DNA from: a virus
DNA length: 25,592 nt
IMG/VR virus record: IMGVR_UViG_3300009285_000305
Span: 1 to 25,592 of that record
Direction: 5' to 3' (one strand)
This document shows positions 1,837 through 23,769 of the stretch, piece after piece; the stretch's first letter is position 1; every line of letters starts with the position of its first letter. The notes under the pieces were generated by a model. The model was not told the origin of the DNA and ran no database searches. It was given only the letters and a program-made list of their open reading frames with translations. A program made the position numbers and the translations under genes.

Positions 1837-3129
1837 CTAGTAAGAGAGCACAAAGTCAAAGAGATCCCCTTCGCTGACAGAGCAAGAGAGAGCGAAGGGA
1901 CCAGTTCTAAAGAAGTCATCCGAGTCTTGCCAAGGTTCCAGAAGAAGTTGAAGAATGAACTTGGCGTTTCCGTAGCTAGAATTCAAGACTAAACTGTCCG
2001 AAAACCACCTGTTCCCCGTGGCAAACAGCATGACGTTATCGTAGAAAGCAATCGTTGGGAGATAGGTCCAACTAGCAGGCTCCACGTAGTAAGGACTTAT
2101 GTATTTCTCCAGTGTTGTCAAGATTCTGGTGTCATCAGTAAAGTCTGCATACTCACTTCCGGAGAGCTTCCACCAGATGGGCGTCTCCAGCTCCAAAGCA
2201 CAAGCATCATACATCCAGCTCTCCACGTCTTCGTAGTCATAGCTAGAGATCCTGAAAGGAATATTCGAGTACCCACGGTAGAAGACTGGAGAGACTCCAG
2301 AGTAAACCAAGGGAACAGACACAGTACTTCCCGCCTCATCTGTCGTCATAGCAACTAGCAATCTCTCACTACTATCAACAGAAACAGAGTACGTTCCTCC
2401 GTCGAGTATAAGATTGTTAACATTGCTGCCATTGAACCTCGCAGAAGAGGTGAAGCCAGAATACCCGCTGGCTGCGACAAGGTTGCTATAACGTGTTCCC
2501 TTGATGGTGCTGGAGCTTGCTGTCATGTAGTGGAGCAAGGTAGAATACATCACCTCGAAGCGCAGCGGGCTGGTAAGAGCTAGCAAAGCAGCATTAGCAA
2601 AGGCAACAGCGTTGTCATCTGCCACGGTGGTATTAAGTGGCGCTAATATCCTAGCAAGACTTGTGGTTCCTAAGCAGAAGATAATTTTCCCAGACACCCG
2701 CGTCTTCCAAGCCAGAAGCCTGTCTAGCTCATCTTCCGTCAAGGCTCTGGAGAGAGCAGGAATAAAGACTAAGCTATATTCATCCAAGTCTCTAGGAAGT
2801 GTTGCCTCTGGTCTTAGCTTACTCCCCCAGAGCTGTGACAGATTCCTGAAGACATCTTCAGTAAACCTCGTCGCACCGATCCAGATCATAGCACGTTCCC
2901 TGAGAGTCTTCGGGAGAGAGAACTCGGAGAGAGGTTTCTTCTTCGCTACCTCTTCTACTACCACGTTGTCGATTCCCTCTATACTAGAGATAGAAAACCT
3001 TCTTCCATCCTTGGTTCTTCCAGTAGTTTTGTAAGCAGACAACTCTCTGGCAGTCATCTGCTGCTTGTGCCTCTCCATCAAGTACTTGATCTCAGCAGCA
3101 TCTTTGTTCCCGCCAGAGAAGATTCTCAT
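1837..3129 (-). CDS. hypothetical virion protein with Rossmann/GATase-like segment (430 aa)
   Basis: The family is not recognised. Residues about 1-65 are charged. Residues about 79-170 alternate beta and alpha: MIWIGATRF, then a helix, YSLVFIPALS, a helix containing LTEDELDRLLAWKT, then GKIIFCLG. This is the rhythm of class-I glutamine-amidotransferase or ThuA-like flavodoxin folds. No clear nucleophile-elbow G-x-C-x-G or catalytic His/Glu pair is visible, so enzymatic activity is not claimed. Residues 200-430 are Ser/Thr/Tyr/Trp-rich and probably beta, as in virion appendage proteins. The start ATG overlaps the upstream stop (ATGA, 3126-3129), so the gene is translationally coupled to the 180-aa gene. 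AAGGAA precedes the start. Confidence 0.75.
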   Translation of the reverse strand: MRIFSGGNKDAAEIKYLMERHKQQMTARELSAYKTTGRTKDGRRFSISSIEGIDNVVVEEVAKKKPLSEFSLPKTLRERAMIWIGATRFTEDVFRNLSQLWGSKLRPEATLPRDLDEYSLVFIPALSRALTEDELDRLLAWKTRVSGKIIFCLGTTSLARILAPLNTTVADDNAVAFANAALLALTSPLRFEVMYSTLLHYMTASSSTIKGTRYSNLVAASGYSGFTSSARFNGSNVNNLILDGGTYSVSVDSSERLLVAMTTDEAGSTVSVPLVYSGVSPVFYRGYSNIPFRISSYDYEDVESWMYDACALELETPIWWKLSGSEYADFTDDTRILTTLEKYISPYYVEPASWTYLPTIAFYDNVMLFATGNRWFSDSLVLNSSYGNAKFILQLLLEPWQDSDDFFRTGPFALSCSVSEGDLFDFVLSY

Positions 3130-3668
3130 AGCCCGGTTCCTTCCAGTGAAAGTGCTGGCAAATCAACAGCAACGAAGGCTCCGAAGAAGTGAACTCTCCC
3201 GGCTTTAGCCGTGCCTACCAAGACATCCAAGTCAATAGAGTTCAAGGCAAAGTCACAGCCCAGGGTGTTGTCTACTCTGACAGTAAAGTAGCAACCACGG
3301 ATGTCTCTGCCCAGGGGAGCAACGACTTCTTCTCCTCTGGAGCTATCAATATCACAGTGCAATTCCCTCTCTACGAAGCTCCCTTCGTCTGACTTGACAG
3401 AGATCTTCATACTCCCAGAAGCTTCCAGGCCAACGATAGCTTTTCGCAAAGACTTCTGCTTCGGGACACCAAGGTCTGTCATAGCAAATTCAGCGAAGGC
3501 GTCAATGGCTGTTCCATTGTCAGTCAGGCCGTTATCGAGGACGAAAGCCCCGGAGCTAGAGACGCCAAGAACTGTTCCATCGTCTAGCTTGCAGAGGGAG
3601 TTAAAGGAGAGTCTACTCTGCTGCACCGCTCCAACATTCCTAGTAAAACATAATCCTAACGTAGCCAC
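3126..3668 (-). CDS. hypothetical virion neck/tail accessory protein (180 aa)
   Basis: The protein is predicted all-beta: an N-terminal region with LDDGTVLGVSSSGAFVLDNG reads like one or two blades of a propeller, then a beta-sandwich-like C-terminus ends in FGAFVAVDL. This layout resembles the small beta accessory proteins that follow gp10-like neck proteins in podovirus operons. I cannot assign a named family. The start is GTG at 3668 with a strong AGGAGG site 5-6 nt upstream; no better ATG exists nearby. Its stop overlaps the next start by 4 nt (ATGA). Confidence 0.75.
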   Translation of the reverse strand: MATLGLCFTRNVGAVQQSRLSFNSLCKLDDGTVLGVSSSGAFVLDNGLTDNGTAIDAFAEFAMTDLGVPKQKSLRKAIVGLEASGSMKISVKSDEGSFVERELHCDIDSSRGEEVVAPLGRDIRGCYFTVRVDNTLGCDFALNSIDLDVLVGTAKAGRVHFFGAFVAVDLPALSLEGTGL

Positions 3669-4525: not shown

Positions 4526-6253
4526 TTACATTCCTAAGAAAAGAGTGTTTGCAATCTCTGTAATGTCAGGATGCTCTTCGAGAAGGATTTCTGGTTTCAG
4601 GCTGTTAGCTATCGTGCTTGGAACTCCCTGTCCGAAGGACAGTGCTGACAGCGTGGGCATAATCCCTGAGAAGAAGTAAGCATAGGTTAAGGTGGAGTCA
4701 CAGGTCAACGTCGGGAAAGTCATCTCTCCCCAGTTAACCTCATGCCCGCCACCAGCTTCCAGTGCCGGAAACTCCATGCTACAATACACCCAACGAATGT
4801 TTCCTGTGCAGGAGAACGCTGGAAGAGCAACGTCAGCTCTATCGTTGTCAGTTTGAAAACTTCCCACAAGCAAGCTAGGCAAACACAAATGTCCCTGGTT
4901 TAATCCAAGCCATCTTGTGCCTGTACCGGCTACCTCGAAACTTGGTAATAATGTAGCTGAACCAACACCAAAAAACGACGCGACCACCCCAGAAGAATCT
5001 GTAACAGCAGATGGTGTTATCCTGATGTAGTCTACATCTACAGAATTATCATAGGTGTATGTATTGTAAGTAGACCTAAGACTAAGTAAAATATCCCAAA
5101 AAGACAGCAGTGAAACATCATCACCAGACAAAGTACCATACTGCACAAAACCATCACCTATATCGAAATAGGTTGTAAGTGAATCACCACTTCTAGCCAT
5201 ACGAAAAATTATACTTGTTATGGAAGTAGAGAAAACAGTTGCACCTGATGAGGTGCCGCTGTAACCTGAAACACCGCCATAAACTATGATACCACCACTG
5301 ACAAAATAATCAGGCCACCAGGTAATGCCAGAAACATATAGATGAGCACCTACACGCACGGTGTTATCTAAACTACGGCATAGCATTTTAAATACAATGT
5401 CACCGTTTCTGTTCAGTACTAAGTTGTCAAGTTTAACGTCTATTGTAAAGTCGTCACTAATTATCACGTTTGGTGAATAAGGAGTTCCATCAACGCTGTT
5501 ATAAGAAATGATACTGACCTGGTCGTAACTATATATTCCAGTTGTCTGTGCTACGTAAGTAGTTTGCATTGGAAGTTTCCCTCCTACACCAGAAGGAGGA
5601 GAAACAATACTACCGGTAGTCGGCAACGGATTATTTCCTGTAGACGAAGTATGAGATATGTAAAGAGAAGAATTATTATTAGTACTGATAGTATGATATA
5701 GAAAATTTTCCGGAAAGTCAGTCGTTAAAGTAAATTCACTATACGCGCTAATACTATCTCCGGGTATTATCCTTGGAGGAAAGTCTGTTATTCCAGGACT
5801 ATAAGGAACCTCTTCAGTATTGCCAACAACTGCTGTAATGGGCCCATCGGCAGGGTTCGAAGGATTTAATATAATCGCTTCGTTTCCATCTATTATTACA
5901 GTAGTACCACCTGTCATGTCTCCATTACCTATTATAATAACATCTTCCGAATCATGAAGGCCCTCAAATTCTGAGATGGGGAAGTCTCCTCTGACATAGA
6001 AAGAGAAGTAAAATTCGTCATTTCTTTCGATTGTAAAGGCAGTTAAATCAGTGCTAGTAAAATAACCGTTTAGTGAATAGTCTGGTTGCTGCACACCATT
6101 TACAGTAAAGAACAGTTGCTGACTTCTTATTCCTTGTATCACATAAACATTTGTGACATAGTAATACCCGGAAGGAAAGTTAAGGCAGCAGTGTGACATG
6201 TCATAGTCTGCCACAAATCTTCTGGTATAGTATATTTTATCTAAATAGGCCAT
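4526..6253 (-). CDS. mosaic tail/appendage protein (575 aa)
   Basis: This is a probable receptor-binding or baseplate-like appendage protein. Residues 1-90 form a compact Tyr/Phe-rich beta domain, 91-245 a Gly/Asn/Pro-rich linker region, and 265-412 a jelly-roll reminiscent of concanavalin-type domains (strands DFTIDVKLDNLVL, DIVFKMLCRSL, IIFRMARSGDSLTTYFDIG, VDVDYIRI). Residues 432-545 carry five or six LPxL-type repeats like those of the next gene. The first 420 codons are markedly AT-rich with many ATA, TTA and AAT codons, while the repeat part matches its neighbours. This suggests that the binding part was swapped in from another source. AGGAG lies just upstream of the ATG. It has no signal peptide. 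Confidence 0.75.
   Translation of the reverse strand: MAYLDKIYYTRRFVADYDMSHCCLNFPSGYYYVTNVYVIQGIRSQQLFFTVNGVQQPDYSLNGYFTSTDLTAFTIERNDEFYFSFYVRGDFPISEFEGLHDSEDVIIIGNGDMTGGTTVIIDGNEAIILNPSNPADGPITAVVGNTEEVPYSPGITDFPPRIIPGDSISAYSEFTLTTDFPENFLYHTISTNNNSSLYISHTSSTGNNPLPTTGSIVSPPSGVGGKLPMQTTYVAQTTGIYSYDQVSIISYNSVDGTPYSPNVIISDDFTIDVKLDNLVLNRNGDIVFKMLCRSLDNTVRVGAHLYVSGITWWPDYFVSGGIIVYGGVSGYSGTSSGATVFSTSITSIIFRMARSGDSLTTYFDIGDGFVQYGTLSGDDVSLLSFWDILLSLRSTYNTYTYDNSVDVDYIRITPSAVTDSSGVVASFFGVGSATLLPSFEVAGTGTRWLGLNQGHLCLPSLLVGSFQTDNDRADVALPAFSCTGNIRWVYCSMEFPALEAGGGHEVNWGEMTFPTLTCDSTLTYAYFFSGIMPTLSALSFGQGVPSTIANSLKPEILLEEHPDITEIANTLFLGM
4619..4960 (-). repeat. LPxL protein repeats in 575-aa tail gene
   Basis: The stretch codes for units LLPSFEVAGTG, CLPSLLVGSF, ALPAFSCTG, EFPALEAGGG, TFPTLTCDS and IMPTLSALSFG, spaced about 17-22 residues apart. 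They match the repeat type at the C-terminus of the adjacent 273-aa protein, which points to duplication or shared assembly function. Confidence 0.65.
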
Positions 6254-15149: not shown

Positions 15150-15542
15150 TCAACCAATCCATCGTGTTTGCTGTTGTCTAACATCAACGTGAGTAAAGGT
15201 ACCGTACCTGCCAATTCCATATCTATCAGAATATCTGTCTTCCAGGAACTCAGCCACCGCCGCTGGAGCAAGTTGCAACCTCTGCCAGTAAAGCCAGACC
15301 CTGATGTCAGCCGCGATTCCCTGAACGTGCTTTGACTTCAGAGCGCCACCGACTTTCTTGTTGTGCTCTTGACACCGGCAGCCTGAGAGAATCTCAATCC
15401 CTGGATATTCTGGATGACCACTGAGCAACTCCACTCTAAGGTCCTCCAGAACAGTCAGGAGTTCAACATCAACAGCGGAAAACCCACAGCCACACTTACA
15501 AGCGAACTCAGTTCTCCAGAAGTTCATGCTGACTTTACTCAT
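15150..15542 (-). CDS. endolysin, peptidase M15A family (130 aa)
   Basis: Zn-dependent L,D- or D,D-carboxypeptidase that cleaves peptidoglycan cross-bridges at lysis. Motifs in order: NFWRTEFACKCGCG (7-20), EILSGCRCQEHNKKVGG (50-66), SKHVQGIAADI (70-80) and GTFTHVDVR (114-122). Zn ligands are His72, Asp79 and His118. The single-domain architecture and length are usual for phage M15A lysins; there is no signal peptide, so release needs a holin. ATG 15542 overlaps the upstream stop by 4 nt (ATGA), coupling it to the membrane-anchored coiled-coil protein. Confidence 0.92.
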   Translation of the reverse strand: MSKVSMNFWRTEFACKCGCGFSAVDVELLTVLEDLRVELLSGHPEYPGIEILSGCRCQEHNKKVGGALKSKHVQGIAADIRVWLYWQRLQLAPAAVAEFLEDRYSDRYGIGRYGTFTHVDVRQQQTRWIG

Positions 15543-15781
15543 GGATTCCTCCGTTCGATCAGCCTGTCAAGCTTCTTGTCTATTCTGTCAAGTGTCTTGT
15601 CCTTCAGGTCCTGATCTGTCGTGTAGCGCTCCAGGAGAACATATTCTCTTGGAAGGTCACACTTGAGTTGATATATCTGATTCATAGACCAAGCTCCAGA
15701 GATTGAAAGCACTGTCAACAGAATTCCTACCAACCACTGAAGAAACTTAATCTGCATATCACTCAGCTTATCCAGACCCAT
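15539..15781 (-). CDS. membrane-anchored coiled-coil lysis-cassette protein (80 aa)
   Basis: There is one TM helix at about residues 12-32 (FLQWLVGILLTVLSISGAW), then LPREYVLLERYTTDQDLKD and an amphipathic helix with LDRIDKKLDRLIERR. This layout is common in phage lysis cassettes (XhlA-like or spanin/holin accessory proteins). It is directly upstream of and overlaps the endolysin gene. It probably acts at the inner membrane during lysis; whether it is holin, spanin or regulator cannot be told from sequence. AGAGGG precedes the ATG. Confidence 0.7.
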   Translation of the reverse strand: MGLDKLSDMQIKFLQWLVGILLTVLSISGAWSMNQIYQLKCDLPREYVLLERYTTDQDLKDKTLDRIDKKLDRLIERRNP

Positions 15782-15798
15782 TTGACAGCCCTCTTAGA

Positions 15799-16941
15799 TT
15801 ATCTTATTGTTCCACCACTGATAACAACACCAGAAATTATTGTGGTAAGTTCTGGTGTTACTGTTCCACCTATTGTGACAGGGTAACCATTAGAAGGTAC
15901 GCCTGCGGAATCTACCACGTAGAGGTAGACTACGGTACCTTCGGTAAAAGTTCCCGCATTAACCGTTACTGTAATAGTCGATCCCCAGGAAGTGTGTCGT
16001 TGAATCTCCCGATGGGTGCAGTCGTCCCAAGTCGGGGCATTGCCTATTTCTACTCTAGCTCTTGATGATAGAATACAAACGTCATCGAACCAGGCGAAGG
16101 TTTGATTATCGACATGCCCCTGGAACATCTGCCCAAAGCGGATATCGGTGTATTCTCCATCACAGAATGTGTGCTTGTAGTCATCTCGGTAATAAAGCTT
16201 AACACCATCATAATAATATTCTAAGATCCCATTGCAGTTTACATTAACAGTACAGTTGTAAGGATCATTTAGCTGTTGGTAATATTCCCAGCGACCCCAA
16301 CGATCTTTAGTTTCACTATAATATAATGTATTTCCAGTACCGTAGGTGGTATTAGAACTCATGTTGTTCATACCATTCCAGTCAGGTTGTTGTGTCGAAT
16401 TATTCGGGTAAAAGCCCCACACAACCTGACCCTCCGGAATTAGCGGGATACCATTTGGGGCATTTGTTGTTTCTCCGCAGGATGCTACATTCCCGTAAGT
16501 AAAAACCAGTTTGCGGTTTGCAGATGTAATGCTACCAGGAAAAACCTCCCTGTGCCAGAAAGTGTAATACAGTTGAGTGTATGGCCCGCGTCCAGCCCAA
16601 CCAAACGAGTTGACAGTTTCGTCGGTCCACTCTATTTTTACAGATTTTTCTCCTGAGTGGGCATAATCGTCTTCTACATTAACAAAGTCGGTTTGCGGTG
16701 AGAGCCTAAACAGGGTCCATGTAGGACCGACAACTGGCGTTTTATATTCAATAGTAGCACCAACAGTGTGCGCCTCAAAGTCATCCCAGGAGATAATCGT
16801 TGACCCGGTGCCAAAGTCCGCACCGCTGATTGTAGCGCTTTCGCCGTTCGATGAATCTCCGGTGACTCCCGTAATGTTCGGAGCCGCCCAGGCGTTAATA
16901 GCAAAGAGAAGGGCAGCGAATACAACCATAGTTTGTTTCAT
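15799..16941 (-). CDS. Sec-signal jelly-roll protein with ISGGTIR C-terminal tag (380 aa)
   Basis: Signal peptide MKQTMVVFAALLFAINAWA with cleavage before APNITG. Residues about 20-45 look like an IPT/TIG strand pair (ITGVTGDSSNGESATISG, then ADFG). Residues about 50-300 look like a concanavalin-type jelly-roll, with HSGEKSVKIEW, LYYTFWHREVFPG, DRWGRWEYYQQ, YTDIRFGQMFQGH and TFAWFDDVCI. Such folds occur in carbohydrate-binding modules and polysaccharide lyases; no sure catalytic residues are assigned. A last beta domain (about 315-355) ends in VVISGGTIR, the same tag as the gene upstream. Composition is more AT-rich than the capsid genes. AAGGGA precedes ATG 16941, 24 nt after the upstream stop. 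Confidence 0.75.
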   Translation of the reverse strand: MKQTMVVFAALLFAINAWAAPNITGVTGDSSNGESATISGADFGTGSTIISWDDFEAHTVGATIEYKTPVVGPTWTLFRLSPQTDFVNVEDDYAHSGEKSVKIEWTDETVNSFGWAGRGPYTQLYYTFWHREVFPGSITSANRKLVFTYGNVASCGETTNAPNGIPLIPEGQVVWGFYPNNSTQQPDWNGMNNMSSNTTYGTGNTLYYSETKDRWGRWEYYQQLNDPYNCTVNVNCNGILEYYYDGVKLYYRDDYKHTFCDGEYTDIRFGQMFQGHVDNQTFAWFDDVCILSSRARVEIGNAPTWDDCTHREIQRHTSWGSTITVTVNAGTFTEGTVVYLYVVDSAGVPSNGYPVTIGGTVTPELTTIISGVVISGGTIR

Positions 16942-16965
16942 ATCGTTTCCCTTCTTGGGTGTGTC

Positions 16966-19263
16966 CTACCTCAATGTCCCGCCGCTGATCGTCATGCCGT
17001 TTGCGCGTAGGCGGTGGGTGGCCTGGGCAGCAGGGTTTTGTACGCCTATTAAGTCTTGGGCAACAATAGCGTATTTAACATAATCACCCCATGATGGAGC
17101 ATCGCTAACCGCCGCCAGAGCTTGTGAGCCTGTGTATGCGCCCGAATCGTAATGCGACAGAAAGGATAGTGCTGCGCGCATTTGGTTCGCATATCCTCCC
17201 CACGCAGACGGCAGCGTTCCCCAGCAGCCTGCGAACTCGCTCCATGACCCAACCCATAAACCGTCATTGTCCATTATAGCGGGGTGCCTATAAGTAGTGG
17301 CGGTATATTTGCTTCCGACATCAGGGCTAAGCAAGATGGGAAATAGGTTGCCAGCCAGAAAGGTTAGCATCTCATCGGTATCATATCCGAATTGGCGCAA
17401 CATCCCGTATGCCGACATAGTAAAGTAGTACATCCAAGGTGAATACTCATACCGCGTACCACTGAGCGTGGTTGCGGCGTAGCTGTCATACATCCACCCA
17501 TGGATAGCATTAGGGTAGCCACTTCCGCCTGCGGTCACGCCGATGTCGTACTGAGACTGATAGTCTGTATTGGTAATGGTTAGCTCCTGCCGCCCCTCCT
17601 GGTACGATATATTTCGCCAAAGTTTATCCTCAAAATATGTTTTTTCAGGCGCGGTATCAGGAGAAATAAACGCCGCCGAACCGACGATCCATGTGGACCA
17701 TCCGACTCCACGCAACTGTCCGATAATAAATGAATCTGCGCCGTGACGACACCACGCATCGGTAGTGTTGCCACACGGCCAGCCTAGAGCATACGCGGCC
17801 TGTTGCTGTAAGCCATCAAGAGCCCATTGATAGCCTGTGAGCAGATATGTGGCGTATGAAATATTTGGCATATGAGAAGTGTCAAGTCCATCATACCCGG
17901 CGTCAGTGAACGTCCCTGGATAAATACGATCCGCTGCTATCTGCGTAGCCGAAGTAATGTTGGTAGCGTTCACACCAGCAGTAGAAGACAGATTGACGGT
18001 TGGGCGGGCGTCCAGCGAAACTATCCGTCCAAGCGTCTCGCCGGACCCTCCCGTAAAATAATCCCCAGACCCGGCGAGCGAATCGGCCTCACGGTAAAAA
18101 TATGGGATTCCGTATCCGCGCTGGCAGTTTGCGATTATAATATCGAAGGCGTCTTGTGCGCTGGCATGCCCCATATTATTCAAATAGATCGCGTCCCAGG
18201 CTGGCAATAGCCCGATGTGATAAAAGGCGGCGTCTCCGGTAGCGTCAAGATCAGTGATATAAAACCCGACACCATGGCCCGACCCTGTAGATGCAGTGTT
18301 GCCGTCCATGTCGTTCATCCCGCCACTTTCTCTGGCCGCCCAATCAGAAGTAAGGGTCGATATCAGCGAGGACGAATCAAGAGCAGGGTCGTAATTAGGG
18401 ATAGCACCTGACGATTTCATGTACGCGACATTGTGGTTTACATGCACAGCCCCCAAATCGGTTCCTAACCAGTACGGTCCACGCACTATTTTTGTTGCCC
18501 CGAGCATGGTCGCCGACGCTTGATATATTTCTGATGTCGGAGAAGCATCGCCCGTTAAAAAGCGAACCCCCATCGCTGGTGAGTCGCTGAAGCTGTCCGC
18601 TTGAGTAGATGAGCAAAGCGTGTTTTCCACTATGTGGGTTACTTCTGCCTTGCTTCCTTGCGCGTAAAACCGAACCTCGAACATCGGTCGCAAGTTTTCC
18701 CCGGTAGACAAATCGATATCATGCGTTCCGGCATGATCTCTAACCATGATTGCGGTGGCGATAGGGCCAGACCAAAGCGCTTCATAAGCCCCAGCTTCGA
18801 TCATCGCTTCTGCCGATGCCGTGTAGTCTGTGGACGAATATGTTAATGTAATTTGAGCTTCGAAATCGTAAGTGGCCAATTCTGCGCTGGTAACGGAGTT
18901 GACATCGCTAAATATACTACCGGATGCCGACGAACTTTGATTGGCAAAATAAACCGTAGTTGATCCACCAGAGGTAATAGACGGCACTACGAATGATATC
19001 ATAGCGTGTTTTACAGAGCCATCATTCCAGCGGCTGAGAACATTACACTGCGTCGATAGCCCCTCATCTGCGCCTCCATCGACAAACGCCTTGGCATAAT
19101 TAGCGATATCACCGATAGCAAATACGCGTGAAACAGTTATGGGCCTATCGGTCTGGGTGGCCCCGTTTAAAATAACGTAATTTTCGCCGCTACCGGAGTA
19201 CGCCGCCAAAGACACGCTTGGGCACAAGAACAAGATAATAAGAAAAAGCAATAATTTCTTCAT
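16966..19263 (-). CDS. Sec-signal putative polysaccharide lyase, RIFT-barrel/PcRGLX-like (about 765 aa)
   Basis: ATG 19263 is preferred over ATG 19281: it has GGAG 10 nt upstream and gives a clean signal peptide (MKKLLLFLIILFLCPSVSLA, cleavage before AYSG). The N-terminal 120 residues contain DRPITVSRVFAIGD, LSRWNDGSVKHAMISF and a closing strand. This recalls the N-terminal RIFT barrel of exo-rhamnogalacturonan-lyase-like (PcRGLX/YetA) proteins with their WpDGSvkwa motif. The large remainder is helix-rich with many Trp/Tyr/His and pairs of Gly turns (YATYLLTGYQWALDGLQQQA, GWMYDSYAATT), fitting an alpha/alpha-toroid. Such a protein would cleave or bind acidic polysaccharide outside the cytoplasm. 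The C-terminus is GMTISGGTLR. The family assignment is from memory of motifs and is moderate. Confidence 0.7.
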   Translation of the reverse strand: MKKLLLFLIILFLCPSVSLAAYSGSGENYVILNGATQTDRPITVSRVFAIGDIANYAKAFVDGGADEGLSTQCNVLSRWNDGSVKHAMISFVVPSITSGGSTTVYFANQSSSASGSIFSDVNSVTSAELATYDFEAQITLTYSSTDYTASAEAMIEAGAYEALWSGPIATAIMVRDHAGTHDIDLSTGENLRPMFEVRFYAQGSKAEVTHIVENTLCSSTQADSFSDSPAMGVRFLTGDASPTSEIYQASATMLGATKIVRGPYWLGTDLGAVHVNHNVAYMKSSGAIPNYDPALDSSSLISTLTSDWAARESGGMNDMDGNTASTGSGHGVGFYITDLDATGDAAFYHIGLLPAWDAIYLNNMGHASAQDAFDIIIANCQRGYGIPYFYREADSLAGSGDYFTGGSGETLGRIVSLDARPTVNLSSTAGVNATNITSATQIAADRIYPGTFTDAGYDGLDTSHMPNISYATYLLTGYQWALDGLQQQAAYALGWPCGNTTDAWCRHGADSFIIGQLRGVGWSTWIVGSAAFISPDTAPEKTYFEDKLWRNISYQEGRQELTITNTDYQSQYDIGVTAGGSGYPNAIHGWMYDSYAATTLSGTRYEYSPWMYYFTMSAYGMLRQFGYDTDEMLTFLAGNLFPILLSPDVGSKYTATTYRHPAIMDNDGLWVGSWSEFAGCWGTLPSAWGGYANQMRAALSFLSHYDSGAYTGSQALAAVSDAPSWGDYVKYAIVAQDLIGVQNPAAQATHRLRANGMTISGGTLR

Positions 19264-19267
19264 CTTT

Positions 19268-19996
19268 TTAGTACTCCGCATATAGCGCAGCTATTTCAGA
19301 CGAAGATAAGGCCGCGTTGTAAATCCTCACATCGTCTATATCCCCCGTAAACTGATAGACGGCAGCCGGACCAGCGCCCACTTGAACATCTGCTGTATTC
19401 TCTACTATCGCAGGGGCGTCAGCCCCTGGAAAACCACCAGATGTGGTTTCCGTGCCGTTTATATAAAGCGTGACACTCCCTGTCTGGGCGTCCAGAACCA
19501 CGGCGACATGCACCGCTGATGTGCCGATTACATAATCACCAGAAGTATATGTGGTTGCGTTGGCCATAAAACGTATTTTTCTAGAAGAGTCCTGGACTCT
19601 GAGCATCCACCCATTTGTGCCGTCATGTTTTACAACAATAGTGCCGTAGCCAGAAGCATAATCCACCCACGCGGCGATAGTTAGACCATTTGCATTAGTT
19701 CCGTCCAACCCGGTCTGCGTTGCGTCTGTAATGGCCGCATTGTTGCCTGTGCTCGTAGACAGAGCGCCAGTACCACTCATTGGTGTTGATGTGTTATACG
19801 TCGCTGTTCCTACCGCTGTGAGGTCGTTACTCCCAATAGCATCAGTCAGATCTGAATCAAATTCCCACCTTGCTACCAAAGTAGGCGCAGAGGCCACCGG
19901 CACCGACCCCGTCATCTGCCCCGCCCCCATCCAGGCGTAGGATGCGGACCCGGCAAGAAGCAGGAGAAGGGCTATGGGGAGAAAGTATTTTTTCAT
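19268..19996 (-). CDS. Sec-signal LamG/concanavalin-like lectin protein (242 aa)
   Basis: Signal peptide MKKYFLPIALLLLLAGSASYA. The mature part is one LamG-type jelly-roll (LamG_3-like): ARWEFDSDLTDAIGSNDL, a GTGALSTST strand, LTIAAWVDY, then VHVAVVLDAQTGSVTLYINGT and the closing GDIDDVRIYNAALSSSEIAAL, which is diagnostic of the family. It is probably a glycan-binding module; it has no enzymatic motif. Its stop lies 4 nt before the ATG of the RIFT-barrel gene, so the two are tightly coupled and may act together on one polysaccharide. AAAGGTGA precedes the ATG. Confidence 0.85.
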   Translation of the reverse strand: MKKYFLPIALLLLLAGSASYAWMGAGQMTGSVPVASAPTLVARWEFDSDLTDAIGSNDLTAVGTATYNTSTPMSGTGALSTSTGNNAAITDATQTGLDGTNANGLTIAAWVDYASGYGTIVVKHDGTNGWMLRVQDSSRKIRFMANATTYTSGDYVIGTSAVHVAVVLDAQTGSVTLYINGTETTSGGFPGADAPAIVENTADVQVGAGPAAVYQFTGDIDDVRIYNAALSSSEIAALYAEY

Positions 19997-20006
19997 GAGA
20001 TCACCT

Positions 20007-23000
20007 TTATGGTCCGGTCCAAGTTCCTGTCCGGCTGGTCATGTGAAGATTTTCAGCGTCCCGAGCAATGAAGCAAATCTGAGCGCCAGCAGTTGAGTCT
20101 GATGTAATCTGCGCCCCAGCCGCAAGCGCCGCGCCGTCAAGCCAAATCACGTCCGCATCATCTGGATTGATAACGACCGCTGCCGCTGTGGTGGAGTGGA
20201 TGCAGAACGAGTCCCCGGCAGTGATGGCTGCAAGGTTAATCGTCCCGGCTCCGGTCGCCCAATGCATGTAGCCTTTTTGCATGGCAGCGCTTAGAGTTTG
20301 GCCGTCTGCGTCAGTGGTCGAAGCGATAGCGCCTCCAATGGTTCCAGAGACTACCAGGTCGGTATTGATTCGAACCGCCGTGTCTGCCTCAATATCCATA
20401 TACCCGTCATTGAGAGAGGCAATATAGATGGCAGAGTCCCTAAGTTGAAGCTGCATAGCCCCGTTGAGCAAAAGCCCGGTATCGGCTACATGGGTCAGCG
20501 TTACGTCTTGGTCAGCACCGAAGTTGATTACACCCGCATCGGCCAGGAACAGGTCAGAGAACTCCAGCGCCGATGTCCCTATCGTCGCACCATCTGCTGC
20601 GTCCGGCACAAGCGCGGTAGCAACAACCGGGGAAGCGGATAAGGCCGCAACACCTGAAGAGTTGATCGTGATCGCCCCAGAGACTTCCTTCGGGTCAAAG
20701 CTGTCCGTGCCATCACCGATCATCAGATAGCCAGCGGTGTAAACGTCCGATCCACCGACATCAGAGAGCGCGAGCAGCGTTCCAGCGGAAACACCAGACG
20801 CCCAAGAGTTGATGGCTGCGAACAATTCGTCCACCGTATCGTGGGCCGCGTTGTTGCTGATCGTGGAATAACTTGCACCGTTTGTTACCGTTCCGGCCCC
20901 AATGCTCTGAAGTGTAGAGCTGCCAAAATTGACTGTTCCGGTAGGCGTCCAGTTACCGCCAGCCCCAAGGTTTCCGATGTTAATCTGAGTCCCGTTGATC
21001 TGGTAGGTGTGGCCTGTGGAAATGTTTACATTCCCCGCGTAGTAAAAACCGTCCGCGTCGAAGTAGCCAAGTTCGGTAAAGTTCGCGGCCATAGCATCGG
21101 TAGTGGTTCCGATTGCCAAGTGGTCAGGCGTAGCAGAGTCGATTGACCGAATAGCAAATTCGGTTGCCATGTCGTTGTCGTTAAAATAGAGATAAGGGTC
21201 GGCTACCGCGCCGCTCGCCATCCCGCCGTCTGAGTTTACCGAGAAGACTTCAACACCACCAGAGTCTTGAATTGAGAATTTATTTGACCCGGCAGCATCG
21301 CCAAGCTGAAGGACCACGTTTCCGGTGCTCTGAATTTCGTTGGCGTTCAGGTTAAAGTCAGCGCCCATCGTGATTTCGCCGTTGAATCCTGAGGTTCCGG
21401 CGAAGGTGTTGTTGCCGGTGAAGGCTTGGTTTGTAGCGAGGGTCGCCAAAGTCCTTGCAGCGGTCCCATCGTGGAATGAAACCACGTTGGAGGCGTAACC
21501 GATCTCACCAGCGGCGTCAGGGGTCGAGTCTCCAAATATCAACCCACCATACCCAGAACCACCCGAATACATCGTATCAGCCGGAAGATAGTTTGCGTCT
21601 AAGTCAACCGTTCCCCATGTGGTTCCGTTGGCGGTAGCCATTACATTGTATTGAGTGGTGGGAGTTACAAAGTCTTCTAAGGTAACGTCCGAAAAATCGA
21701 TAGAATCATCGTCAATGGTATCGGCAGCAATTTGTTCACCGTCGATTAAATCAGACCCATTATCCCACTGCACGGCACCAACCGTCAGGTGGTCGGTAGT
21801 CTGCAAAGTGACCCCGCCGTTAGCTGTTAAAGCGCCTGTAACCGTCAAGGCTGAAGCTGTGATAGAGCCATCCCCGAAAGCTATGGTCGGGTCCGTTCCA
21901 CCAGAAGCGTCGAACGTCCAAGTGATACCAGCACCAGCGCCCCATGTTTCGGTGCCTATTTCGGTAGCGTCTACCGTGATAGTCAACGCACCATTAGCGC
22001 CTGCGTCGGTAAAGTCGATACCGTCAGAGCCAGCCGTCAAAGTCCGTTCAGCCGATAGCGTAGCGTCAGGCGCCAAGGTGAGGTATTGCACGTCAGTGGG
22101 TGCGGCGGTTGCGCCTATTGTCACCCACCCACCGTTATAAAGTTTAAGATTGTTACCGTCTGCGGCGATAAACTTCTTGTTGCTTGCAGGAACTACGTTT
22201 GCCCAATTAGGAAGGACAAGCCCTTCGTCGGTATCTACTGTTTGCGTGATCCCCGAAAGGTCAAGAATATCACCGTCTGCGAACGCCAAAACAGGATCAA
22301 GCTGTGCTGCTGTGATGCTTGCCAGAAGTGCGGCGTCAACCAGGTTGTCATCTACGGTATCACCAGGTAAATCGTCAAGGTCAGAAAGCGCTGACCCTGT
22401 GCCGGTTATAGTGTTAGACGCTTGGTCGTAGGAAAGTCCGCTACCGATAGTAATAGGTCGGTAGATATTTCCGGTGTTATCAAAGCCAAAAAGTGTATGT
22501 GCTGCTGGATCATCAGGCCATTGGGCTACATTACCGGCTGCATTACCGAGAGTTAATGCCGCAATGTTTCCTCCAGTTGTCCTTCCTACCACTCGTTGTT
22601 CAGCAACGGTGAGCGCTGCTGGTGTATCGTCTGCGGTGGCGTAAAGCACTGTGTTTGCGTCATATAGAGAAACAGGAAGAAATGTTGCCGGGTCGGTCCA
22701 GCTGGCTACACCATTTGTGGCTACGGTGAAAAGAGAGTTCGCCACGGTGGGGTAGGCAGTCGGGAGTGCAATACCCCAGCTCTGTGTAAAGTTCGAGGCA
22801 TAGAGGTCGAAGTGGAACTGATTCTCTGCCGTGTTATCATACCAGCGAACAGTTCCCTTGGTCGTCGCGGCTACGCCTACATGGAGGCCGTCTGAGCCTG
22901 TGATTGTCAGGCCGTAGAGGGAAAGGGCTGAGTCTGCTATGGAGCCGTCTCCGTCAGGATCTATGGTGTTCATCAGGTAGGTAATCAAGGCGTGCTGAGA

Positions 23001-23258
23001 AACACCATGTGCGGTGTCATCAGTCATGTTTGCCGTCGTAACAGCTTCGTTCACGATCTCCGCGGCTGCCCCAGAGAACTGTGTTGCCAGCGTCGCGGCG
23101 TCCCACAGTCGCATGGTGTTGTCAGTTCCCTCGGTGAGCAGGGCAGCGGTGCCCTCTGCGACCGCTTCTGCAGGAGGAGCGCCGGGAGGCCCTGCGTGGG
23201 AGAGCCCAGCAAAGATGCACAAAATGAATGCCAGGAGGAGAAAAGTCTTCTTTGTCAT
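20007..23258 (-). CDS. long fibre-like protein with Sec signal (1083 aa)
   Basis: Starts with a signal peptide (MTKKTFLLLAFILCIFAGLSHA, cleavage before GPPGAPP). The rest is a long, low-Cys, Gly/Ala/Thr/Asp-rich beta protein with phage tail-fibre style segments: TLAPDATLSAERTLTAGSDG, VTGALTANGGVTLQT, NAAHDTVDELFAAINSWASG and ADGATIGTSALEFSDLFLADAG. The C-terminal cap ends ENLHMTSRTGTWTGP, like the exposed domain of environmental fibre proteins. By length and composition it is a tail fibre; the N-terminal export signal is odd for a virion protein. GAGGA lies 7 nt before the ATG. It lies 13 nt after the small anchored protein and 10 nt before the LamG gene. Confidence 0.8.
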   Translation of the reverse strand: MTKKTFLLLAFILCIFAGLSHAGPPGAPPAEAVAEGTAALLTEGTDNTMRLWDAATLATQFSGAAAEIVNEAVTTANMTDDTAHGVSQHALITYLMNTIDPDGDGSIADSALSLYGLTITGSDGLHVGVAATTKGTVRWYDNTAENQFHFDLYASNFTQSWGIALPTAYPTVANSLFTVATNGVASWTDPATFLPVSLYDANTVLYATADDTPAALTVAEQRVVGRTTGGNIAALTLGNAAGNVAQWPDDPAAHTLFGFDNTGNIYRPITIGSGLSYDQASNTITGTGSALSDLDDLPGDTVDDNLVDAALLASITAAQLDPVLAFADGDILDLSGITQTVDTDEGLVLPNWANVVPASNKKFIAADGNNLKLYNGGWVTIGATAAPTDVQYLTLAPDATLSAERTLTAGSDGIDFTDAGANGALTITVDATEIGTETWGAGAGITWTFDASGGTDPTIAFGDGSITASALTVTGALTANGGVTLQTTDHLTVGAVQWDNGSDLIDGEQIAADTIDDDSIDFSDVTLEDFVTPTTQYNVMATANGTTWGTVDLDANYLPADTMYSGGSGYGGLIFGDSTPDAAGEIGYASNVVSFHDGTAARTLATLATNQAFTGNNTFAGTSGFNGEITMGADFNLNANEIQSTGNVVLQLGDAAGSNKFSIQDSGGVEVFSVNSDGGMASGAVADPYLYFNDNDMATEFAIRSIDSATPDHLAIGTTTDAMAANFTELGYFDADGFYYAGNVNISTGHTYQINGTQINIGNLGAGGNWTPTGTVNFGSSTLQSIGAGTVTNGASYSTISNNAAHDTVDELFAAINSWASGVSAGTLLALSDVGGSDVYTAGYLMIGDGTDSFDPKEVSGAITINSSGVAALSASPVVATALVPDAADGATIGTSALEFSDLFLADAGVINFGADQDVTLTHVADTGLLLNGAMQLQLRDSAIYIASLNDGYMDIEADTAVRINTDLVVSGTIGGAIASTTDADGQTLSAAMQKGYMHWATGAGTINLAAITAGDSFCIHSTTAAAVVINPDDADVIWLDGAALAAGAQITSDSTAGAQICFIARDAENLHMTSRTGTWTGP

Positions 23259-23271
23259 TGTTGTTCCTCTG

Positions 23272-23769
23272 CTATTTCTTGACAGAAGTAATCAGAACCT
23301 TGGCAGTTCCGGAACCTAAGCCTGAGAGTGTACCAGTGCAGCGGGAGCCCTTCGGGATATGGAAGAACCCCGTTGGGAACTTCGGAGCCTCTCCCGTTGC
23401 CGCTGCAGTCCAAGACCTGTTGAAGAGTTCGTTCCCGTAGCTGTCCTTGATCACGAAGGTGACGGATTCGTCAGCTGATGTCTTGATTGTCACTTGGTAG
23501 AGGTAGCCAGGGGAGAGCTTCCCTGAGAGATTGACTGTTGCGTTCGCGCTCCAGGTCATTTCCTGTGTGACGACTATCTCAGCACCATCTCCTTGCTCCA
23601 GGACTGTCTCAGCCCGGGCGATTCCCGCGAGTACCAGCAAGAAAAGACCCACCAGCAACCAAAGGTGGGTTGGGCTAAAGCCTAGTTTGGTAGTCCGACA
23701 TAGGGTTGGGCCAAGGCCTAGTTTGTCAAAGCCTTGGCAGTTCATCTTCATCAATGTCTTCGCTTTCAT
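23272..23769 (-). CDS. signal-anchored small beta protein (165 aa)
   Basis: ATG 23769 has AAGGAG 9 nt upstream and overlaps the small-terminase end by 44 nt. Residues 1-35 are a long cytoplasmic lead that includes two copies of KLGxxPT. A hydrophobic stretch LWLLVGLFLLVLAGIARA follows (about 36-53), which can serve as an uncleaved anchor or a signal peptide ending ARA. The mature part is a small beta sandwich (VTIKTSADESVTFVIKDSYG, then PKGSRCTGTLSGLG) of unknown family. It heads the row of exported or anchored proteins before lysis and may anchor or chaperone the fibre-like product that follows by 13 nt. Confidence 0.65.
   Translation of the reverse strand: MKAKTLMKMNCQGFDKLGLGPTLCRTTKLGFSPTHLWLLVGLFLLVLAGIARAETVLEQGDGAEIVVTQEMTWSANATVNLSGKLSPGYLYQVTIKTSADESVTFVIKDSYGNELFNRSWTAAATGEAPKFPTGFFHIPKGSRCTGTLSGLGSGTAKVLITSVKK
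23667..23725. repeat. two direct repeats of 23 bp, period 36 nt
   Basis: Copies at 23667-23689 and 23703-23725 match at 21 of 23 bases (GGGTTGGGCYAARGCCTAG plus TTTG). The period is 12 codons, in frame in the anchored beta protein, where it gives two KLGxxPT peptides. The right copy ends at the small-terminase stop codon. An inverted repeat CCAAGGC/GCCTTGG (23711-23717 with 23731-23737) overlaps it. Confidence 0.7.

Follow-up and report, generated by a model that had tools for sequence, protein, structure and literature searches.

Two unlike neighbouring proteins encoded on the minus strand of a virus contig, one of 380 aa and the other of 771 aa, end in nearly the same peptide (...SGVVISGGTIR and ...NGMTISGGTLR, respectively), and this sharing of a tail is real and unusual. 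The contig, 25,592 bases long and analysed in full (the window), was the subject of an earlier note whose observation of a near-identical C-terminus on these proteins is confirmed, as is the size of 380 aa that it gave for one of them; the 765 aa given for the other holds only from an internal ATG, the full ORF comprising 771 aa. Tails of other sequences recur in sister cassettes of exported genes, homologues elsewhere lack them, and the codons of the shared residues have diverged synonymously. What, then, might such a tail be for? The reading that we favour, tentatively, is that the tail may serve exported enzymes of an appendage or of the surface as a C-terminal docking peptide specific to each phage, swapped together with gene-boundary DNA.

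The large genes of the window are podovirus-like, and it encodes a Phage_capsid_3 major capsid protein, the product of a portal-sized gene, a terminase large subunit and an M15 endolysin. Between what is probably the gene of the small terminase and that of the large one lies a run of consecutive exported-type genes (Table 1), in the order 165, 1083, 242, 771 and 380 aa, followed by the 80-aa membrane protein and then by the endolysin. The first five products each carry a predicted signal peptide or an N-terminal hydrophobic stretch, as called with a simple hydrophobicity and cleavage heuristic and not with a dedicated predictor; by the same heuristic, the 380- and 771-aa proteins have N-terminal Sec signal peptides (scores of 3.1 and 3.7). 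No sequence match to the 380-aa protein was found in Pfam, PHROG, NCBIfam or PDB. The N-terminus of the 771-aa protein gave a sub-threshold match to a PcRGLX-like RIFT-barrel, and a weak homologue of this protein is gp39 of EBPR siphovirus 1; the structures that AlphaFold gave for the two proteins were of unusable quality. Searches for defence families and RNA families found none. Close to the beginning of the gene for the 165-aa protein, a 23-nt tandem-like repeat (GGGTTGGGCYAARGCCTAGTTTG) is present in copies 36 nt apart (23667-23725), and the corresponding peptide, KLGFSPT, occurs only once in the N-terminus of the relative encoded by L017, a contig closely related to the window phage (TerL 96% identical over the 189 aa available).

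Table 1. Genes of the exported cassette, shared tails and intergenic leader in the window
Feature	Position	Strand	Basis
80-aa membrane/coiled-coil protein, last of the cassette	15539..15781	-	
380-aa protein, predicted Sec signal peptide, jelly-roll-like body (inferred from sequence), end SGVVISGGTIR	15799..16941	-	ORF, heuristic, homologue alignments
Tail codons SGVVISGGTIR of the 380-aa gene (core ISGGTIR, 15802-15822)	15802..15834	-	
24-nt intergenic leader GACACACCCAAGAAGGGAAACGAT between the 771- and 380-aa genes, contains ribosome-binding site	16942..16965	-	
771-aa protein, predicted signal peptide, end NGMTISGGTLR	16966..19281	-	ORF, heuristic
Tail codons NGMTISGGTLR of the 771-aa gene (core ISGGTLR, 16969-16989)	16969..17001	-	
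242-aa exported LamG/concanavalin-like protein, without tail	19268..19996	-	
1083-aa exported fibre-like protein, without tail	20007..23258	-	
165-aa protein, N-terminal hydrophobic stretch, first cassette gene	23272..23769	-	L017 encodes a signal-peptide-bearing relative of 152 aa

How unusual the shared tail is was judged by scoring all within-contig protein pairs of 18 phage contigs, including those in which tails had already been noticed, by BLOSUM62 alignment anchored at both C-termini. The 380/771 pair of the window came top of the 3,516 same-contig pairs with a score of 40, followed by the 395/454 pair of L011 (38) and a pair of ctVRi840 (37); the fourth reached 23. Random pairs of the same composition scored at most 28 in 20,000 trials, and the score of the window pair corresponds to an extrapolated P of about 3.5e-6 to 4e-6 per pair, a value that hinges on a log-linear fit to the tail of the distribution; the window contains ~230 pairs, which puts the number of such matches expected by chance at roughly 1e-3. 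Among 7,038 background pairs from seven other phage genomes, one scored at least 30 (44), and both of its members are annotated as HNH endonucleases. A degenerate DNA pattern for ISGGT occurs at exactly two places in the record, both of them the tails, and its reversed control at none. These figures, in particular the extrapolated P, make it unlikely that the resemblance arose by chance or local convergence, for example by slippage duplication of GGTGGAACARTAA in a low-complexity tail of the 380-aa gene that yielded ISGGTIR, and the same pattern is also seen independently in L011. Such an origin would nevertheless fit with the direct repeat GGTGGAACAGTAA / GGTGGAACAATAA and with the absence of the motif from a close homologue of the 380-aa protein; since GGTGGAACARTAA is present twice inside the tail of the 380-aa gene itself, local slippage may have contributed to the origin of that particular tail.

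The motif itself does not travel far. One scan of IMG/VR for ISGGT[IL]R followed by a stop, with serine encoded by AGY codons only, returned a single match that was non-coding and due to chance, and a tblastn search of phages with the 771-aa tail, a short query run against part of sequence space, returned none; as far as such searches reach, ISGGT[IL]R is not widespread, and the exact motif is no general phage C-terminal motif. The earlier note named homologues without the tag as something that would refute its reading, and in part this is what is seen: no close homologues of the 380-aa protein were found other than a set (core 88% identical) that lacks ISGGTIR and ends in ATKSHFNGGKALR instead. 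In the siphovirus-like contig G001, where no match to the window terminase is detectable, the counterpart of the 380-aa protein is 88% identical in its core but continues beyond GYPVTIG with a PTPTP linker and ATKSHFNGGKALR.

Sister cassettes were found by a fibre-domain search that used the N-terminal domain of the 1083-aa protein as the query. Each complete one encodes a fibre-like protein and a 240-280-aa protein and, behind them, between one and three enzymes or lectins; the tails are located on these last enzymes or lectins, with the exception of the 462-aa protein of G001, and some exported cassette proteins have none. In L011, a jelly-roll-like protein of 395 aa (ARSFGGNGTRIYGTGGYH) adjoins a pectate lyase of 454 aa (ARRMGVNTIIHGTGSYQ), the consensus of their tails being AR[SR][FM]GxN..TxIxGTGxY, and here too a PTPTP linker precedes the tail of the 395-aa protein. 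The 635-aa protein of L017 and the 610-aa protein of L014 are 34% identical overall, and their last 13 residues are identical (TTRSMGAKPGLLP); when wider use of this tail was searched for, it was found only in the L017 and L014 contigs. Close as L017 is to the window, its tail differs from that of the window and sits on a different protein, and in L020, another close relative, a lectin-like protein ends with SHTMRSKPLLP. The candidate tails of G001, SRISGGMTVGQ and KSHFNGGKALR, show no significant likeness (score 7), the pair in vir555 is weak (score 19), and a similar exported-gene run in BK063671 (assigned to Methanomicrobiales) ends in two proteins whose tails resemble each other loosely and weakly (score 19). 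No comparable run of exported genes was seen in the distant TerL relatives L021-L039, many of which are short fragments.

Several side observations concern the cassettes as such. Tailed viruses of podovirus-like, siphovirus-like and archaea-assigned kinds all possess a whole cassette in which fibre-like, lectin-like and enzyme products have predicted Sec signal peptides (window 15539-23769, minus strand; G001 (L006-L008), L011, L014, L017 and BK063671). By eye, many tails start with a small linker followed by [ST]x[RK]S. The fibre-like proteins at L015 9620-11371 and L016 9620-10318 start with MLKKIIVxAMAFMMFGCVG, which has the look of a lipoprotein signal with a lipobox cysteine.

Does the likeness between tails reside in the peptide or in the DNA? 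The proposal that the two window tails are related by synonymous changes holds, as five of their seven identical residues are specified by different codons, and nine of the 15 nucleotide differences over the last 11 codons fall in third positions (P=0.03). The L011 pair behaves in the same way, with different codons at 8/10 identical residues and 12/20 differences in third positions (P=0.013). The excess of third-position differences and the differing codons indicate selection or constraint on the peptide in both pairs. Furthermore, no DNA repeat of at least 16 nt links the two window gene ends, and no second copy of the 21-nt tag of the 771-aa gene was found in the window with up to three mismatches allowed. 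In the ctVRi840 pair, the six identical residues are without synonymous change, and this pair was dropped as support for peptide selection for this reason, and the L017 and L014 tails differ at only 3/39 nt; codon identity in the former and near-identical tail DNA in the latter indicate recent sharing of DNA. A boundary effect seems to be present alongside one on the peptide. In L060 (MW202742), a pectate lyase (1977-3353) and an unlike, repeat-rich protein (5003-5737) have the common C-terminus WGxxxRRR[KR]D; the residues that they share are written in the same codons, which suggests that gene ends were recently shared as DNA.

Could the boundary effect account for everything? If protein bodies were exchanged at conserved boundary DNA comprising the gene end, the stop codon and the next leader, the tail would hitch-hike as the translated edge of a module and need have no function as a peptide. 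DNA similarity does extend past the stop codon in L020, G001, L017, L014 and, partly, the window. In L020 and G001-588, the stop is succeeded by the leader GGGCCGGAATGAACTGGATTACGCACC..AAGGGA, which is present in partial form in L017, in L014 and after the 771-aa gene of the window, where the intergenic leader is similar to what comes after the stop codon of exported genes in L020 and G001; moreover, GATCAGCGGCGGGA is common at the DNA level to the tails of window 771 and G001-588. These similarities, the near-identity of the L017 and L014 tails, the unchanged codons of the ctVRi840 pair and a precedent for recombination at short conserved phage boundaries (PMC3233612) all point in this direction. 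On the other hand, the leader after the 380-aa gene is unlike that after the 771-aa gene, so that the junction DNA conserved in L020, G001, L017 and L014 is partial after the one window gene and missing after the other, and no repeat joins the two window ends. Hitch-hiking accounts for the DNA-level cases but not for the synonymous divergence in the window and L011; we hold it, the main rival of docking, to be possible but somewhat doubtful as the whole explanation. As a widespread site, the junction element gave only chance matches in one unrelated gene family beyond G001/G002 and L020. Nearly the same 80-aa protein is followed by different-looking small endolysin-type genes in L020 (814-1561) and in the window (15150-15781), which suggests a separate swap at that junction.

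The earlier note had proposed a sorting, processing or docking tag, and of the three it is docking, as a prediction, that is best supported. A host-directed tag, read after Sec export by a secretion, anchoring or protease system of the host, would be in keeping with the signal peptides predicted for the tagged proteins and most of their cassette neighbours, and with the lipoprotein-like fibres of L015 and L016. It is distinctly unlikely, however, given that the tails have no hydrophobic segment or basic end of the LPXTG, PEP-CTERM or GlyGly-CTERM type and no long T9SS CTD, that the 380- and 771-aa proteins match no NCBIfam sorting model at E<=0.01 (a search that very short models can escape), and that tails differ even between the window and L017, whose hosts are probably the same. 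Membership of the LPXTG, PEP-CTERM or T9SS classes, in the lack of both a model match and a hydrophobic helix, is unsupported. With such systems the window tails share a short or terminal signal on Sec-exported proteins; unlike them, they have no transmembrane helix, basic end or long CTD.

Docking is favoured because different tails recur in related cassettes, are appended after complete domains and are absent from homologues outside the cassette. On the docking reading, the 380-aa and the 771-aa protein would each finish in a short docking peptide made up of their last ~7-11 residues, both proteins belonging to a cassette of exported carbohydrate-active or lectin-like proteins whose bodies would be swapped freely between phages. 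With the N-terminus occupied by a predicted, cleavable Sec signal peptide, a constant attachment module would have to sit elsewhere, unlike the N-terminal anchors of podoviruses, and the constant, phage-specific element would be the C-terminal tail behind its short linker. The tail might attach each body to a common acceptor, be it another exported cassette member, located on the surface of the host, or an appendage of the virion, and genes would be exchanged by recombination at a boundary formed by tail, stop codon and next leader. Several observations count against docking. The two candidate tails of G001 are unlike and the vir555 pair is weak, some exported cassette proteins have no tail, a purely protein-level tag does not need the DNA similarity past the stop codon, and the tails do not vary in step with the C-terminus of the fibre: the window and L014 fibres end alike and the tails differ, and L014 and L017 share a tail, yet their fibre ends differ. 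No dedicated partner gene or acceptor for the tail was found. A search of the genome collection for hosts or prophages, made with fibre and jelly-roll alignments, returned nothing. A scheme in which host-interaction enzymes and lectins are Sec-exported before a C-terminal peptide, specific to the phage, attaches them, with a polarity opposite to that of the N-terminal tailspike anchor and with appendages completed outside the cytoplasm, appears unlikely to us. Until an acceptor is shown, the shared tail is a variant of modular phage host-interaction proteins and not a new kind of system.

How do these features compare with what is known? Literature searches for phage tail proteins that carry signal peptides, or for docking tags at the C-terminus, turned up nothing relevant. 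Where the L011 pectate lyase has relatives, in Cellulophaga phages and in faecal contigs, these stop at the domain end and have no tail. Among them, gp26 of Cellulophaga phage phi39:1 (KC821626) belongs to the same family as the 454-aa protein and likewise has a predicted signal peptide, as does its neighbour gp25; both (L056, 1812-5359) are annotated in the record as structural by MS/MS. Signal-peptide-bearing pectate lyases can thus be virion components; for the window proteins, this is an analogy at most. If docking is true, the question arises of how signal-peptide proteins, such as the MS/MS-confirmed ones of Cellulophaga phages, become part of virions whose assembly takes place in the cytoplasm.

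For mosaic phage genomes, a model has been described in which recombination takes place at short sequences conserved at module boundaries (PMC3233612), and the junctions between swapped modules analysed here likewise bear short conserved DNA; they differ in that the conserved stretch reaches into the coding sequence and in that two phages conserve the peptide rather than the DNA. Even if the tail were only a module boundary, a host-interaction cassette would still be shown to move between podovirus-like and siphovirus-like phages. In the receptor-binding proteins of the Klebsiella podoviruses KP32, KP34 and K11, the known anchors are N-terminal domains, and second receptor-binding proteins dock on the first or on an intermediate anchor protein (PMC8262889). 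The window resembles these phages in having a putative shared attachment module on unlike, exchangeable enzymatic or lectin bodies of one phage; unlike their anchors, the module is not N-terminal but a C-terminal peptide of 7-18 residues, the N-terminus being a predicted signal peptide. If Sec-exported proteins do dock through a C-terminal peptide that is specific to the phage, this would amount to an attachment logic other than that of N-terminal anchors.
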